The notes below the pieces were generated by a model. It worked only from the letters and a program-made list of their open reading frames with translations. It made no database searches and was not told the origin of the DNA. Below are positions 7,955 through 24,427 of a stretch of DNA of 33,202 nucleotides, in pieces. Location of the stretch: the NCBI GenBank assembly GCA_003168355.1, contig PMSQ01000057.1:14891-48092 (forward strand), written 5' to 3'. Position 1 is the first letter of the stretch. Each line of letters begins with the position of its first letter. The translations under genes were made by a program, and so were the position numbers. Origin of the DNA: Acidobacteriaceae bacterium. Its GTDB lineage: Bacteria > Acidobacteriota > Terriglobia > Terriglobales > Acidobacteriaceae.

Positions 7955-8485
7955 ATGATTCGATCCTTCAAAGGCATGCGGCCTACGATCCCTGCGAGTT
8001 GTTACGTGGACGAGTCGGCGCAGATCATCGGCGACGTAGTGCTCGGGGAACACGCCTCGGTGTGGATGAATGCAGTGTTGCGCGGCGACGTGTACGCCAT
8101 CCGCATCGGCGCGCATTCGAACGTGCAGGACTGCAGTGTTTTGCACGGGATGAAGAATCAATACGGTGTGACGCTGGGCGAGTATGTCACCGTAGGGCAT
8201 TCCGTAACGTTGCACGGCTGCGTTATCGAAGATCGATGCCTGATCGGCATGGGCTCAATCATTCTGAATGGCGCGAAAATCGGTGCAGGTTCGATCATCG
8301 CGGCCGGCACGCTGATTCCCGAGCGCACGGTGGTCGAGCCCGGAGCGCTTTGGATGGGCTCGCCCGGAAAGTTCCGCCGCAAGCTGGAAACAGGCGAGGA
8401 CGAGACGATCATGCGCTACGCGCGGAATTATCTGGGATATACGGAAGAATATTTGCGGGAGCGGGGAGTAAAGCTGTCATCCTGA
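7955..8485 (+). CDS. Gamma-carbonic anhydrase family protein
   Basis: A 176-residue left-handed beta-helix protein of the hexapeptide-repeat superfamily. Tandem [LIV]-G-x4 turns run through most of the chain (IIGDVV, VWMNAVLRGD, IRIGAHSNVQDCSVLHG, VTLGEYVTVGHSVTLHG, LIGMGSIILNGAKIGAGSIIAAG). Three histidines (VLH, VGH and LHG) match the spacing of the zinc/iron ligands of gamma-carbonic anhydrases. Family members hydrate CO2 or bind related substrates, and many bacterial ones have unproven activity. The ATG at 7955 gives the conserved start; an in-frame TTG at 7925 is an alternative. It is monocistronic, and a repeat cluster follows its stop. Confidence 0.88.
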   Translation: MIRSFKGMRPTIPASCYVDESAQIIGDVVLGEHASVWMNAVLRGDVYAIRIGAHSNVQDCSVLHGMKNQYGVTLGEYVTVGHSVTLHGCVIEDRCLIGMGSIILNGAKIGAGSIIAAGTLIPERTVVEPGALWMGSPGKFRRKLETGEDETIMRYARNYLGYTEEYLRERGVKLSS

Positions 8486-8690
8486 GCGTCCCAAAGGGAC
8501 GCGTGAGAATAGCCCGGCGTTTCAACGCCGGGAGGCGGGACCGAGCCGCTTCCCGTCCCGTTAGGGACGGCTGAAATCGATGGTGAGCGATTGGGGGTAT
8601 TCAGTCGTGCCTACGGCACGAGGTTGGAACCATCGCTTACCGCCACTGAAGTGGTGGGCTAGTATCGGAGGTCCCTCCGGGACCTGACGG
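8474..8690. repeat. Cluster of five short palindromes upstream of hisS
   Basis: Between the carbonic anhydrase and hisS lie successive small hairpins: a TGTCATCCTGAGCG start with GTCCCAAAGGGAC, CCCGGCG-TTTCAA-CGCCGGG, CCCGTCCCGTTAGGGACGG, TCGTGCC-TAC-GGCACGA, CCACTGAAGTGG and GGTCCCTCCGGGACC. They read like a mosaic of several repeat families and leave only about 14 bases before the hisS start codon, so they form most of any hisS leader. Confidence 0.65.
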
Positions 8691-14108: not shown

Positions 14109-14116
14109 GTTTCGTC

Positions 14117-14210
14117 CGGAAGCTTTGGCCGCGGGTGGCCCGGAAAGCTTTGGCACGCGGGTGGCGCGGAAGCTTTGGCTTCTTGGAAGGTTTTGGCCTT
14201 TGGGTGGCGC
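14117..14210. repeat. About 25-base degenerate tandem repeat leading into a REP
   Basis: Three close units of the type GGAAGCTTTGGCCGCGGGTGGC follow the aspS stop (starting about 14118, 14142 and 14168). A fourth, more divergent unit (GGAAGGTTTTGGCCTTTGGGTGGCGC) runs directly into the head of REP copy B. Confidence 0.6.
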
Positions 14211-14339
14211 AGCGCTTTCAGCGCTGCGATTCAGGCAGCCAAGATGAACGGCTTTAGCCGCCGAGGTACCTCAGGGGCTAAAGCCCATTCCTTCCGCACA
14301 ACTTTATCGCAGGCCTAGAAGGCCTGCGCCACCCAAAGG
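14197..14339. repeat. REP elements, inverted pair B1/B2
   Basis: B1 (14197-14269) reads forward: CCTTTGGGTGGCGC head, GCAGCGC-TTTCA-GCGCTGC hairpin, GGCTTTAGCC mini-hairpin and a GAGGTAC tail. B2 (about 14265-14339) is the reverse complement arrangement ending in GCGCCACCCAAAGG. They share the palindromic centre GAGGTACCTC. B2 ends 8 bases from the 3' end of the RAYT gene and has the same orientation as that gene. Confidence 0.8.
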
Positions 14340-14347
14340 CACAAGCA

Positions 14348-14830
14348 TCACGCAGTCAGGAAGACCGGCTTCAGCCGCAGCGGGACATCATCCAACACAA
14401 AACCCGGGTGAGCTGAACTGTAGGGATACTCCTCTGGGCTCCCAGCCAGGCCACGCTTCACCGGATTCCGGCGCATGTAATACTTGAAATTGTCGTAGTC
14501 TTCAATGTCTCTCACGCGGCGATCATAGTAGCTCAGCTGCCAGATTTCTCCCGAATGTCCTACTTCCCTTTTTGCCCGGTAGGAGAACCCTCCCTTGATC
14601 AGTTGCAGCGATCTTTCCAGGCTGAGAACAGGTGAAATCAGCAGATGAAAATGGTCCGGCATCAGAACAAATTCGTGCAGAAGATAATTCTTCTTGTCCC
14701 GGTAATGGAACAGGACTTCCACGAACAGCCGCGCCATGGGTTCCTTGCAAAATAGCAGGCTCCGCTGAAAGGTGGAAGCAGTGATGAAATACACGCTATA
14801 TCCGGTGTTTCCTCTGGGAGGCGCTGCCAT
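14348..14830 (-). CDS. REP-associated tyrosine transposase (RAYT, IS200-like Y1 family)
   Basis: A 160-residue single-domain Y1 transposase. Residues 56-64 hold the HUH motif (LMPDHFHLL, His60 and His62). KGGFSYRAKREVGHSGEIWQ is a conserved RAYT segment. YYMRRNPVKRGL carries the probable nucleophile Tyr118 in the usual Y-[IM]-x2-NPV-K-x-GL setting. RAYTs cut single-stranded DNA at REP sequences and are thought to spread REPs rather than to jump as normal insertion sequences. The gene is bracketed by REP copies B2 (3' side) and C (5' side) in direct orientation. The end of copy C supplies GAGG five bases before the ATG. All key residues are present, so it may be active. Confidence 0.9.
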   Translation of the reverse strand: MAAPPRGNTGYSVYFITASTFQRSLLFCKEPMARLFVEVLFHYRDKKNYLLHEFVLMPDHFHLLISPVLSLERSLQLIKGGFSYRAKREVGHSGEIWQLSYYDRRVRDIEDYDNFKYYMRRNPVKRGLAGSPEEYPYSSAHPGFVLDDVPLRLKPVFLTA

Positions 14831-14904
14831 AAGTACCTCAGCGGCTAAAGCCGTATCTTTAACTCCACCTTACCGCAGCGCTGCAAGCGCTGCGCCACCC
14901 AAAA
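14831..14904 (-). repeat. REP element, copy C, abutting the RAYT start codon
   Basis: On the minus strand it runs CTTTTGGGTGGCGC, GCAGCGC-TTGCA-GCGCTGC, spacer, GGCTTTAGCC, GCTGAGGTACTT and then directly ATG of the RAYT gene. It is therefore the RAYT 5' leader, and its tail acts as the ribosome-binding site. Confidence 0.8.
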
Positions 14905-15374
14905 GCAAAACATCAGTGTCGCAGTTCCCGGATCGGAACAGTCTGAGTTACGAAGGCATCTTAGTAGCCACAAGGATTTCGTCGCTAATCCCAGTCCCCA
15001 AAATCGCCTTCCCCACCGACTCCTAGCCCTTAAGCTTTTGGGTTTTGGCCTTTGGGTGGTGCAGCGCTTTCAGCGCTGCGATTCAGGCACTCCCAGCAGA
15101 CCGGCTTTAGCCGCTGAGGTATGTCTCTGCGGCATCTCTCCGCGCCGTCAAGAAAACTCACATCGCCTTACCCGACTCTTTCTAAACCCCTTGCCCACCC
15201 CAGCATAACTTTTTACAAGCCTCGGACAATGTCGTGACACCCACTCTCACGCGCAAAGCTAGTCTCCAGATTGTCAGCAGGTTGCAATGCCTAAGCGGGC
15301 TAAAACATCGAAATCAATGCAAACGTTCAAAGCCGGCCCCGGGTAATTCGCAATAGCTAAATAAGGAGGACAAC
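14905..15374. other. Gene-free region between RAYT and the TIGR03118 gene
   Basis: Apart from REP copy D, no coding frame with a plausible start and composition is seen. The bases after 15122 have no recognisable promoter. They end in a strong AAGGAGG ribosome-binding site at 15363-15369 for the next gene. Confidence 0.5.
15049..15121 (+). repeat. REP element, copy D
   Basis: Forward orientation: CCTTTGGGTGGTGC head, GCAGCGC-TTTCA-GCGCTGCGATTCAGG, then GGCTTTAGCC and GCTGAGGTA. Except for the middle spacer it is nearly identical to B1. Confidence 0.8.
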
Positions 15375-22828: not shown

Positions 22829-24427
22829 GTGCCTACCTTCCACGTCGAAAATTTCGGATGCCGCGCCACCCAGGCCGATGGTGCCGCTCTCGAACGTCAG
22901 TTCGAGACTCGCGGCCTCGCCCGGGCCTCCGCCGCGCAAGCCGACCTCGTGATTCTGAACACCTGCACGGTCACCAATTCCGCCGATCAGGATGCCCGCG
23001 CCGCCATCCGCCGCGTGCAGCGCCAGAATCCCCTGGCAAAAATCGTCGTCACCGGCTGCTATGCCCAGCGCGCTCCCCAGGAAATCGCCGCCCTCCCCGG
23101 CGTCAACGCCGTGATCGGCAATTCCCACAAACACCAACTCGCCGACATCGCCTTGCCCATTTTTTCGGATTTGGGGTGGCGCAGCGCTTCCAGCGCTGCG
23201 ATAGATCCCGTCAATTTAATCGCGGCTTCAGCCGCTGAGGTCGGCAGCCGGGGAAATCATCAAGGCTTCCTCCCTCTCTCCACTCTTACTGAGAACCGGG
23301 AACTGAGAACTGAGAACTGGATTTTTATCTCCGACATCTTCGCCCACACCGAACTGCTCGCCGCCCCCGTCTTCGAAGCCGTTGGCGAGCTTACGCAAAA
23401 TGCCCGCACCCGCCCCAACCTCAAAGTGCAGGACGGCTGCGACAACCGCTGCTCCTTCTGCGTAATCCCCAGCGTCCGTGGCCACAGCCGGTCGTTACCT
23501 TTTCCGCAAATCGTTCGCGAAGTGAACACCCTGGTAGCCGCAGGCTACCGCGAAGTCGTGATCAGCGGCATCAACCTCGGCCGCTGGGGCCGCGATCTAG
23601 CTGCAGACTCCGGGCTTTGGGCTTCGGGCACAATCCAAGAGGCCAGTCGGCTCGAACCAACGCTCGGAAACCTAAGTCCTACGGCCGAAATCCGAAATCC
23701 GAGGCCCGCGCCGGCCGTCCCAATGCCCGAAGCCCGAAGCCCGAAGCCCAATTTCGAATCCCTCATCCGTTCCATCCTCGCCGAAACCCAGCTCGAAAAA
23801 CTCCGCATTTCCAGCGTCGAGCCCATGGATTGGAGCGACGACCTCATCGCCCTCATCGCGGCGTCCCCTCGCATCGCCAAACACGCGCACGTGCCTCTGC
23901 AATCCGGCAGTGACGCCGTGTTGCGCCGCATGCATCGCAAATATCGTCCCTGGCACTATCGTGAGAAGATCGAAAAGATTCGCGCCGCCATGCCCACCGC
24001 CGCCATCGGCGCCGATGTCATGGCCGGATTCCCCGGCGAGACCAACACCGAATTCGAAGCCACCCGCCGCCTCATCGAAGATTTACCCTTTACCTACCTG
24101 CACGTCTTCACTTACTCTGCGCGCCCCGGCACCCCCGCCGCCGCCATGCCGAATCAAGTCCCGGTACAAATCGCCCGCGAGCGCAACCGCATCCTGCGCG
24201 ACCTCGCCGCCGAAAAAAAACTCGCCTTTATGCAATCGCTCATCGGCAAGCCGGTCGAAGCCATCACGCTTAACGTGGCTCATAGCAAGTCCACCGGAGA
24301 GTTTACCGAAGCCCTCACCGACAACTATCAAAAATTATTTCTGAAGGGACACCACGCCCCCAACTGCTGGCTCGCCGCGCGGATCGAAGACCTGGACGAC
24401 GGAGCGCTAGTAGGTCTGCTTACGTAG
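22829..24427 (+). CDS. mtaB: MtaB-like tRNA (t6A37) methylthiotransferase with repeat-derived insertions
   Basis: A radical-SAM methylthiotransferase that adds a methylthio group to N6-threonylcarbamoyl-A37 of tRNA. The GTG at 22829 gives the standard VPTFHVENFGC start. The N-terminal cluster cysteines are Cys11, Cys46 and Cys77, and the radical-SAM CDNRCSFC gives Cys204, Cys208 and Cys211. VISGINLGRWGRDL, HVPLQSGSD and GADVMAGFPGET follow, with a TRAM-like tail. At 532 residues it is about 100 longer than usual. Residues about 114-164 derive from an in-frame REP and a GAGAACT heptamer array. Residues about 259-309 derive from GGGCTTY, CCGAAAT and GCCCGAA heptamer arrays. Both extra segments fall in loops, so the enzyme may still work. 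Confidence 0.85.
   Translation: MPTFHVENFGCRATQADGAALERQFETRGLARASAAQADLVILNTCTVTNSADQDARAAIRRVQRQNPLAKIVVTGCYAQRAPQEIAALPGVNAVIGNSHKHQLADIALPIFSDLGWRSASSAAIDPVNLIAASAAEVGSRGNHQGFLPLSTLTENRELRTENWIFISDIFAHTELLAAPVFEAVGELTQNARTRPNLKVQDGCDNRCSFCVIPSVRGHSRSLPFPQIVREVNTLVAAGYREVVISGINLGRWGRDLAADSGLWASGTIQEASRLEPTLGNLSPTAEIRNPRPAPAVPMPEARSPKPNFESLIRSILAETQLEKLRISSVEPMDWSDDLIALIAASPRIAKHAHVPLQSGSDAVLRRMHRKYRPWHYREKIEKIRAAMPTAAIGADVMAGFPGETNTEFEATRRLIEDLPFTYLHVFTYSARPGTPAAAMPNQVPVQIARERNRILRDLAAEKKLAFMQSLIGKPVEAITLNVAHSKSTGEFTEALTDNYQKLFLKGHHAPNCWLAARIEDLDDGALVGLLT
23173..23241 (+). repeat. REP element inside mtaB, copy E
   Basis: GGGGTGGCGCAGCGC head, GCAGCGC-TTCCA-GCGCTGC hairpin, spacer, then GCGGCTTCAGCCGCTGAGGT. 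It is 69 bases, exactly 23 codons, and has no stop in the reading frame. Confidence 0.8.
23288..23320 (+). repeat. Heptamer array GAGAACT inside mtaB
   Basis: ACTGAGA, ACCGGGA, ACTGAGA, ACTGAGA, ACTGG: nearly five 7-base units, encoding TENRELRTENW. Confidence 0.75.
23612..23752 (+). repeat. Three heptamer arrays inside mtaB loop 2
   Basis: 23612-23632 holds GGGCTTT, GGGCTTC, GGGCACA. 23685-23705 holds CCGAAAT twice and CCGAGGC. 23725-23752 holds GCCCGAA three times and GCCCAAT. The reading frame stays open through all of them. Confidence 0.75.

Follow-up and report, generated by a model that had tools for sequence, protein, structure and literature searches.

An in-frame REP in the tRNA methylthiotransferase gene mtaB of an acidobacterium, and related palindromes in other genes of its genus

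How does a dispersed palindromic repeat come to be part of the reading frame of a conserved enzyme, and is it there as a passenger or as a working part? The question is raised by the mtaB gene in a 33,202-nucleotide stretch of acidobacterial DNA, analysed here as a whole and called the window. The gene (22829..24427, plus strand) has a GTG start and an intact open reading frame (ORF) for a protein of 532 aa. This protein belongs to the MtaB family of tRNA (t6A37) methylthiotransferases, with 383.2 bits against the NCBIfam MtaB equivalog TIGR01579 (cut-off 357.05), and contains the UPF0004 and Radical_SAM domains of Pfam. Six cysteines, C11, C46, C77, C204, C208 and C211, are invariant in 29 aligned MtaBs of the genus including that of the window. 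An AlphaFold2 model made from 50 aligned sequences has a mean pLDDT of 76, and the predicted fold resembles the B. subtilis MtaB model 9a6d (TM 0.72) and MiaB 7mjz (TM 0.69).

A REP pair consisting of two hairpins lies in the mtaB frame at 23168..23242 (plus strand), corresponding to about residues 114-138, DLGWRSASSAAIDPVNLIAASAAEV. It begins with the GATTTGGGGTGG foot region, followed by the stem CGCAGCGCT, a TCC loop and the stem AGCGCTGCG (23180-23200); after a spacer comes a second palindrome around CGGCTTCAGCCG, which ends near GAGGT (23221-23242). According to the available text of PMC6006769, the tetranucleotide GT[AG]G at the foot of a short palindrome defines a REP. Indeed, hairpin A (23176..23200, plus strand) carries GTGG immediately 5′ of its 9-bp stem, which closes a 3-nt loop. 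Its partner palindrome, hairpin B (23221..23242, plus strand), is recognised by repeat family D5 and by RNA folding, and has no GT[AG]G-type foot in its sequence. As RNA, the pair is predicted to form two 9-bp hairpins with a z-score of -2.70, and 5 of 200 shuffled sequences are at least as stable. A preceding sequence-only reading had described the insert as 69 bases, exactly 23 codons without a stop, which add a peptide between the N-terminal cluster domain and the radical-SAM cysteines. The domain and cysteine positions confirm this location, and the frame is open across the element with the predicted translation GWRSASSAAIDPVNLIAASAAEV; the element is, however, slightly longer, and because 23173 is a third codon base, the 69-nt stretch, 23 codons in length, is not codon-aligned.

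The element is not unique to mtaB. A 25-nt pattern of the hairpin is matched 24 times across the 5.3 Mb of the window genome (up to three mismatches), and its reversed control not once, so that the REP in mtaB is not a chance palindrome. A 28-nt pattern is present in 40 of 45 genomes of the genus (up to two mismatches; control 0). As is expected of a REP, the dispersed copies are mostly located outside genes, with 24 of the 254 testable matches in the survey described below being in frame. Furthermore, the window contains an ORF for a RAYT-like Y1 transposase (14348..14830, minus strand; PF01797, 31.8 bits, cut-off 23), which is flanked by REPs found by repeat search: one pair adjoins it at 14199..14269 (plus strand), an inverted pair lies on its other side at 14833..14907 (minus strand), and a further pair is found at 15041..15121 (plus strand). 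That the mtaB insert is the same REP as the one around the RAYT gene, as had been proposed, is supported by these pairs. The ORF is matched in 36 of the 45 genomes (E 1e-10 or better), and in all of the 12 best RAYT matches, which come from 12 genomes, hairpin A is no more than 300 nt away from the ORF (up to four mismatches). Judging from this arrangement, the RAYT would be the mover of the REP. Two genomes, G033 with 17 REP matches and G027 with 13, have no match to the window RAYT at E 1e-10, and the REP-rich G004 and G016 have weak best matches only (8.6e-13 and 1.0e-14). A 25-nt tandem array, whose unit resembles the left half of the REP, adjoins the RAYT gene at 14116-14179.

The history of the mtaB copy was followed in 81 extracted MtaBs, i.e., that of the window genome and the best 80 of 289 loci; 79 of them form the rows of a tree, since the blocks of L116 and L134 could not be cut. 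The REP is found in the first loop of 10 of the 81, with strand, frame and loop identical throughout. All ten carriers fall within one clade of 30 rows (support 100/91), and the REP is found neither in 20 of these 30 rows nor in the other 49; among the 51 MtaBs outside the clade, there is a weak match to hairpin B in two only. Well-supported branches of the tree force at least five gains or losses of the REP. An old protein domain that just resembles a REP, for which its occurrence in ten species in one common frame could be cited, is ruled out by the absence from 20 clade rows and from the 49 rows beyond; moreover, its DNA matches a dispersed repeat. The sequence-only reading had named such a domain, common to all relatives, and a frameshifted or pseudogene state of mtaB as what would speak against it. 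The latter is also ruled out, by the open ORF and the kept cysteines. Nearly all records are MAGs, but the same feature appears in ten separate genomes, and an assembly artefact or a decaying pseudogene is therefore extremely improbable.

The MtaBs of the genus vary in length at two loops. The linker which holds the REP has 99 residues in the window MtaB versus 72-78 in five REP-free members of its subclade (L086, L088, L090, L094 and L149), while another REP-free member, L089, has 89 residues with other sequence inside. In the whole clade, the linker is 89-141 residues in the ten carriers and 66-79 in 15 of 19 measurable non-carriers (20 in total); in the remaining four (L089, L099, L105 and L148) it is 88-106 residues, filled by other sequence. 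In the AlphaFold2 model, pLDDT is below 50 at residues 119-160, a segment spanning most of the REP-coded stretch, and at 257-291 and 298-302, which lie in the second loop. Such values are also found at 169-188 and at 203-220, the latter containing the conserved radical-SAM cysteines, so that the model does not mark the insert as specially disordered; its low confidence there agrees with a flexible loop and is no proof of one. In L045, which is the same gene as L106, several units of about 24 nt (QRDASV-like) stand directly before the REP in the first loop, perhaps an expansion of the left half of the REP.

Repeats of another kind, not noted in the sequence-only reading, are found in frame in the same gene. 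A heptamer array, ACTGAGA in 4.6 copies, lies in frame in the same linker as the REP (23288..23319, plus strand), and the second variable loop, which ranges from 31 to 97 aa in genus relatives, contains three arrays with the units CGGGCTT, CCGAAAT and GCCCGAA (23611..23749, plus strand). The units vary among species. Of the 30 mtaB genes in the clade, 21 have arrays of period 7 (7, 14 or 21), located at the two loops; such arrays also occur in 10 of 30 pheT genes and in 2 of 30 mutY genes, where the REP itself accounts for both, and the 30 tilS and 30 rlmN genes have none. Thus, the mtaB loops collect more than one class of repeats. No report of heptanucleotide tandem repeats in Acidobacteria or of palindromic elements in Sulfotelmatobacter was found in the open-licence literature.

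In-frame REPs are wider than first noted and are found in several, mostly RNA-related, genes of related bacteria. Within the window genome itself, 3 of the 24 matches are in frame inside conserved genes: besides mtaB, a search of the kind suggested by the sequence-only reading found two more, in tilS and rlmN. A survey of the window genome and other genomes of the genus, with several places left out, gave at least 260 loci with at least 268 distinct REP matches, of which 14 of 268 are too near an end and 254 are testable. Among the matches listed, 24 of the 254 lie in frame and are bordered by coding sequence on either side. Twenty-two of them are in identified genes, named by Pfam or, in the case of the other tilS and mtaB copies, by orthology: tilS (eight), mtaB (four, in three genes), Lhr-type helicase, penicillin acylase and Fe-S oxidoreductase (two each), and rlmN, pheT, mutY and a polyketide-synthase-like gene (one each). 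The other two (L433 and L479) passed the strict filter and lie in ORFs without a Pfam family. One of the eight tilS copies (L304) is in an ORF interrupted by other stops. As with the RPEs of Rickettsia, these are in-frame insertions in conserved genes, judged by the open frames and the flanking Pfam domains in mtaB, tilS, rlmN, pheT, Lhr and others. The hairpin is read in four strand-frame combinations, with the predicted peptides GWRSASSAAI, xRSAxSAAPPK, IAALxALRHPK and SQRWKRCATQ; hence, it would be a DNA element that spreads, not a peptide.

Several matches were set aside. L287 (SIMPL) was dropped with a REP that precedes the likely start, L230 and L259 (mutY) and L236 (GtrA) failed a stricter in-frame filter, and seven matches with coding flanks and without a common open frame are probably intergenic. 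REPs at ORF ends in the window genome (L010, L011, L013, L014 and L015) were not scored as insertions, because they may lie outside the actual start or stop of the gene.

The host genes were further scanned for hairpins A and B and for a palindrome C, itself a dispersed repeat (49 matches in the genome of the window, none for the control), in the 30 best-matching loci each of tilS, rlmN, pheT and mutY and in the 30 clade mtaB genes. One or more of these palindromes are present in an open frame in 15 tilS, 11 rlmN, 10 mtaB, 14 pheT and 6 mutY genes out of 30 each, and in none of 201 reversed sequences. Among the pheT matches, that of L374 falls on residue 9 of an ORF taken from stop to stop. 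Hairpin A alone is found in 8, 3, 10, 1 and 5 genes, respectively; in rlmN, it is mostly worn down next to a kept hairpin B. As background, an internal copy is found in 1 of 262 neighbouring ORFs of at least 200 codons, but the host genes were chosen because REPs had already been seen in them, so that the counts describe recurrence and are no test of preference. In pheT, the REP of G033 occupies a site without a palindrome in 19 of 21 readable loci, e.g., ADAERFSSASVLELENP (9 of 30 are unreadable). In L346, palindromes B and C are in frame at this site, at about residues 459-480 of pheT. The Lhr-type helicase has in-frame REPs at two different sites, in L229 (G001) and L082 (G006).

How old are the copies in mtaB? 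The arm spacing is 20 in 9 measurable of the 11 mtaB copies and in 42 of 118 measurable among 157 genome copies, two of which come from mtaB. The spacers of two mtaB subclades share a likeness of 0.36 versus 0.31 for random genome spacers (permutation p 0.039), which is weak for L087 and L093, and some copies, in L093 and L097, are visibly decayed. At the DNA level, the copies are nevertheless more alike than a neutral old passenger would predict: in nine carriers (L098 with two copies being excluded), identical residues have identical codons in 186 of 221 cases inside the REP versus 7305 of 12782 elsewhere (84% vs 57%), a value matched elsewhere in 7 of 441 windows of nine codons. Young copies, homogenisation and constraint would each account for this, and the figures make no choice between them.

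The following course appears to explain these data best, with a probability of about 0.68 for the account as a whole. A REP pair, whose spread is probably due to the RAYT-type Y1 transposase, would have entered the linker loop of MtaB between the two cluster domains once, in an ancestor of the genus (probably Ca. Sulfotelmatobacter). It would have landed in a stop-free frame and in a loop tolerant of extra residues, and for these reasons may have been kept as a translated passenger; later, it would have been lost or worn down in most lineages. Parallel events, in different reading frames, probably took place in tilS, rlmN, pheT, mutY and a few other genes. The mtaB REP is thus most likely a tolerated passenger, presumably neutral, in a permissive loop. 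At least five changes on the tree make several gains possible, and together with the modest spacer evidence (p 0.039) they lead us not to claim a strict single origin.

Repeated independent insertion, with the loop as a landing site for REPs and other repeats in separate species, is the main, if less probable, alternative. The scattered distribution in mtaB, with its five or more changes, and the high DNA identity among the copies speak for it, and separate arrivals are also suggested by G001, whose pheT has other palindromes at the REP site of G033, by the two sites in the Lhr-type helicases of G001 and G006, and by rlmN of L205, where hairpin A is in a different frame from that in L195 and L196; yet mtaB shows a single strand, frame and arm spacing, and spacers alike in part of the carriers. 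Could the REP instead be kept by selection, as a DNA site to which a protein binds or as an mRNA hairpin that adjusts how strongly RNA-modification enzymes are translated? Such a function is unlikely. The synonymous likeness, folding better than that of 195 of 200 shuffles and the recurrence in tilS, rlmN, mtaB, pheT and mutY against the single neighbouring ORF point toward it, but the element is missing from mtaB of 20 of the 30 clade members, is decayed in L093 and L097, and the genes compared were picked after REPs had been seen in them. Equally doubtful is the broader idea that, in this genus, a specific set of enzymes for RNA modification and translation has acquired REP-family palindromes as permanent portions of the coding sequence, maintained for their DNA or RNA, e.g., as intragenic hairpins tuning the translation of tRNA-modifying enzymes. 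If this were true, the insertions of REPs or RPEs published for TruA, TruB and tRNA synthetase genes in other bacteria would be signs of one shared host preference. The tolerated passenger with later losses remains the preferred reading.

The sequence-only reading, partly supported overall, had held that a RAYT-driven REP serving as a protein-coding insert in Acidobacteria would be unusual. That a RAYT-linked REP which codes for protein would be unusual in itself is not borne out: according to the available text of PMC3733652, intragenic REPs occur in several species, hosted by genes for DNA repair, for tRNA synthetases and for tRNA pseudouridine synthases among others, and lie at about the same site in recB of two Xanthomonas, and frame-keeping REP insertions within tnpAREP genes of subclass 2.4 are described in that of PMC6006769. 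The kind is therefore known. Like the GTAG/CGTC REPs of the former source, the present ones are within conserved ORFs; as far as its available part goes, the difference is in the phylum (Acidobacteriota), in the hosts (mtaB, tilS, rlmN, pheT and mutY) and in that copies occur in a third to half of the orthologues sampled for four genes and can be compared with relatives free of REPs. The tnpAREP insertions likewise keep the frame, but the host there is the transposase gene itself. The RPEs of Rickettsia are likewise palindromes that form part of the reading frame of housekeeping genes (PMC2229807, PMC10969869), tRNA pseudouridine synthase B being one host of RPE-1 (PMC2229807, PMC10969869, PMC3733652). 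Going by the available parts of these sources, the likeness is one of behaviour only. RPEs are longer, 105-150 bp, and those parts do not mention a link to a RAYT, unlike the case of the acidobacterial REP, in which four strand-frame combinations are used. The novelty lies in the phylum, in the host genes and in the series of orthologues, for which the open-licence literature yielded no earlier report.

This series provides natural sets of orthologues in which a given loop either has or lacks an in-frame REP, for several genes in about 30 genomes each. It lets one ask by which route REPs come to lie in genes, which unit is mobile and how long coding copies last, and it bears on whether genes for RNA modification are preferred as hosts or simply tolerate REPs. 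Caution is also called for, since some of the variation in loop length in MtaB, TilS, RlmN, PheT and MutY of these bacteria stems from repeated DNA. Elsewhere in the window, an Acido-Lenti-1 RNA is matched at 8487-8532 (minus strand; Rfam, 46 bits), and related TGTCATCCTGAGCG repeats are found at 8475, 26469 and 28055.
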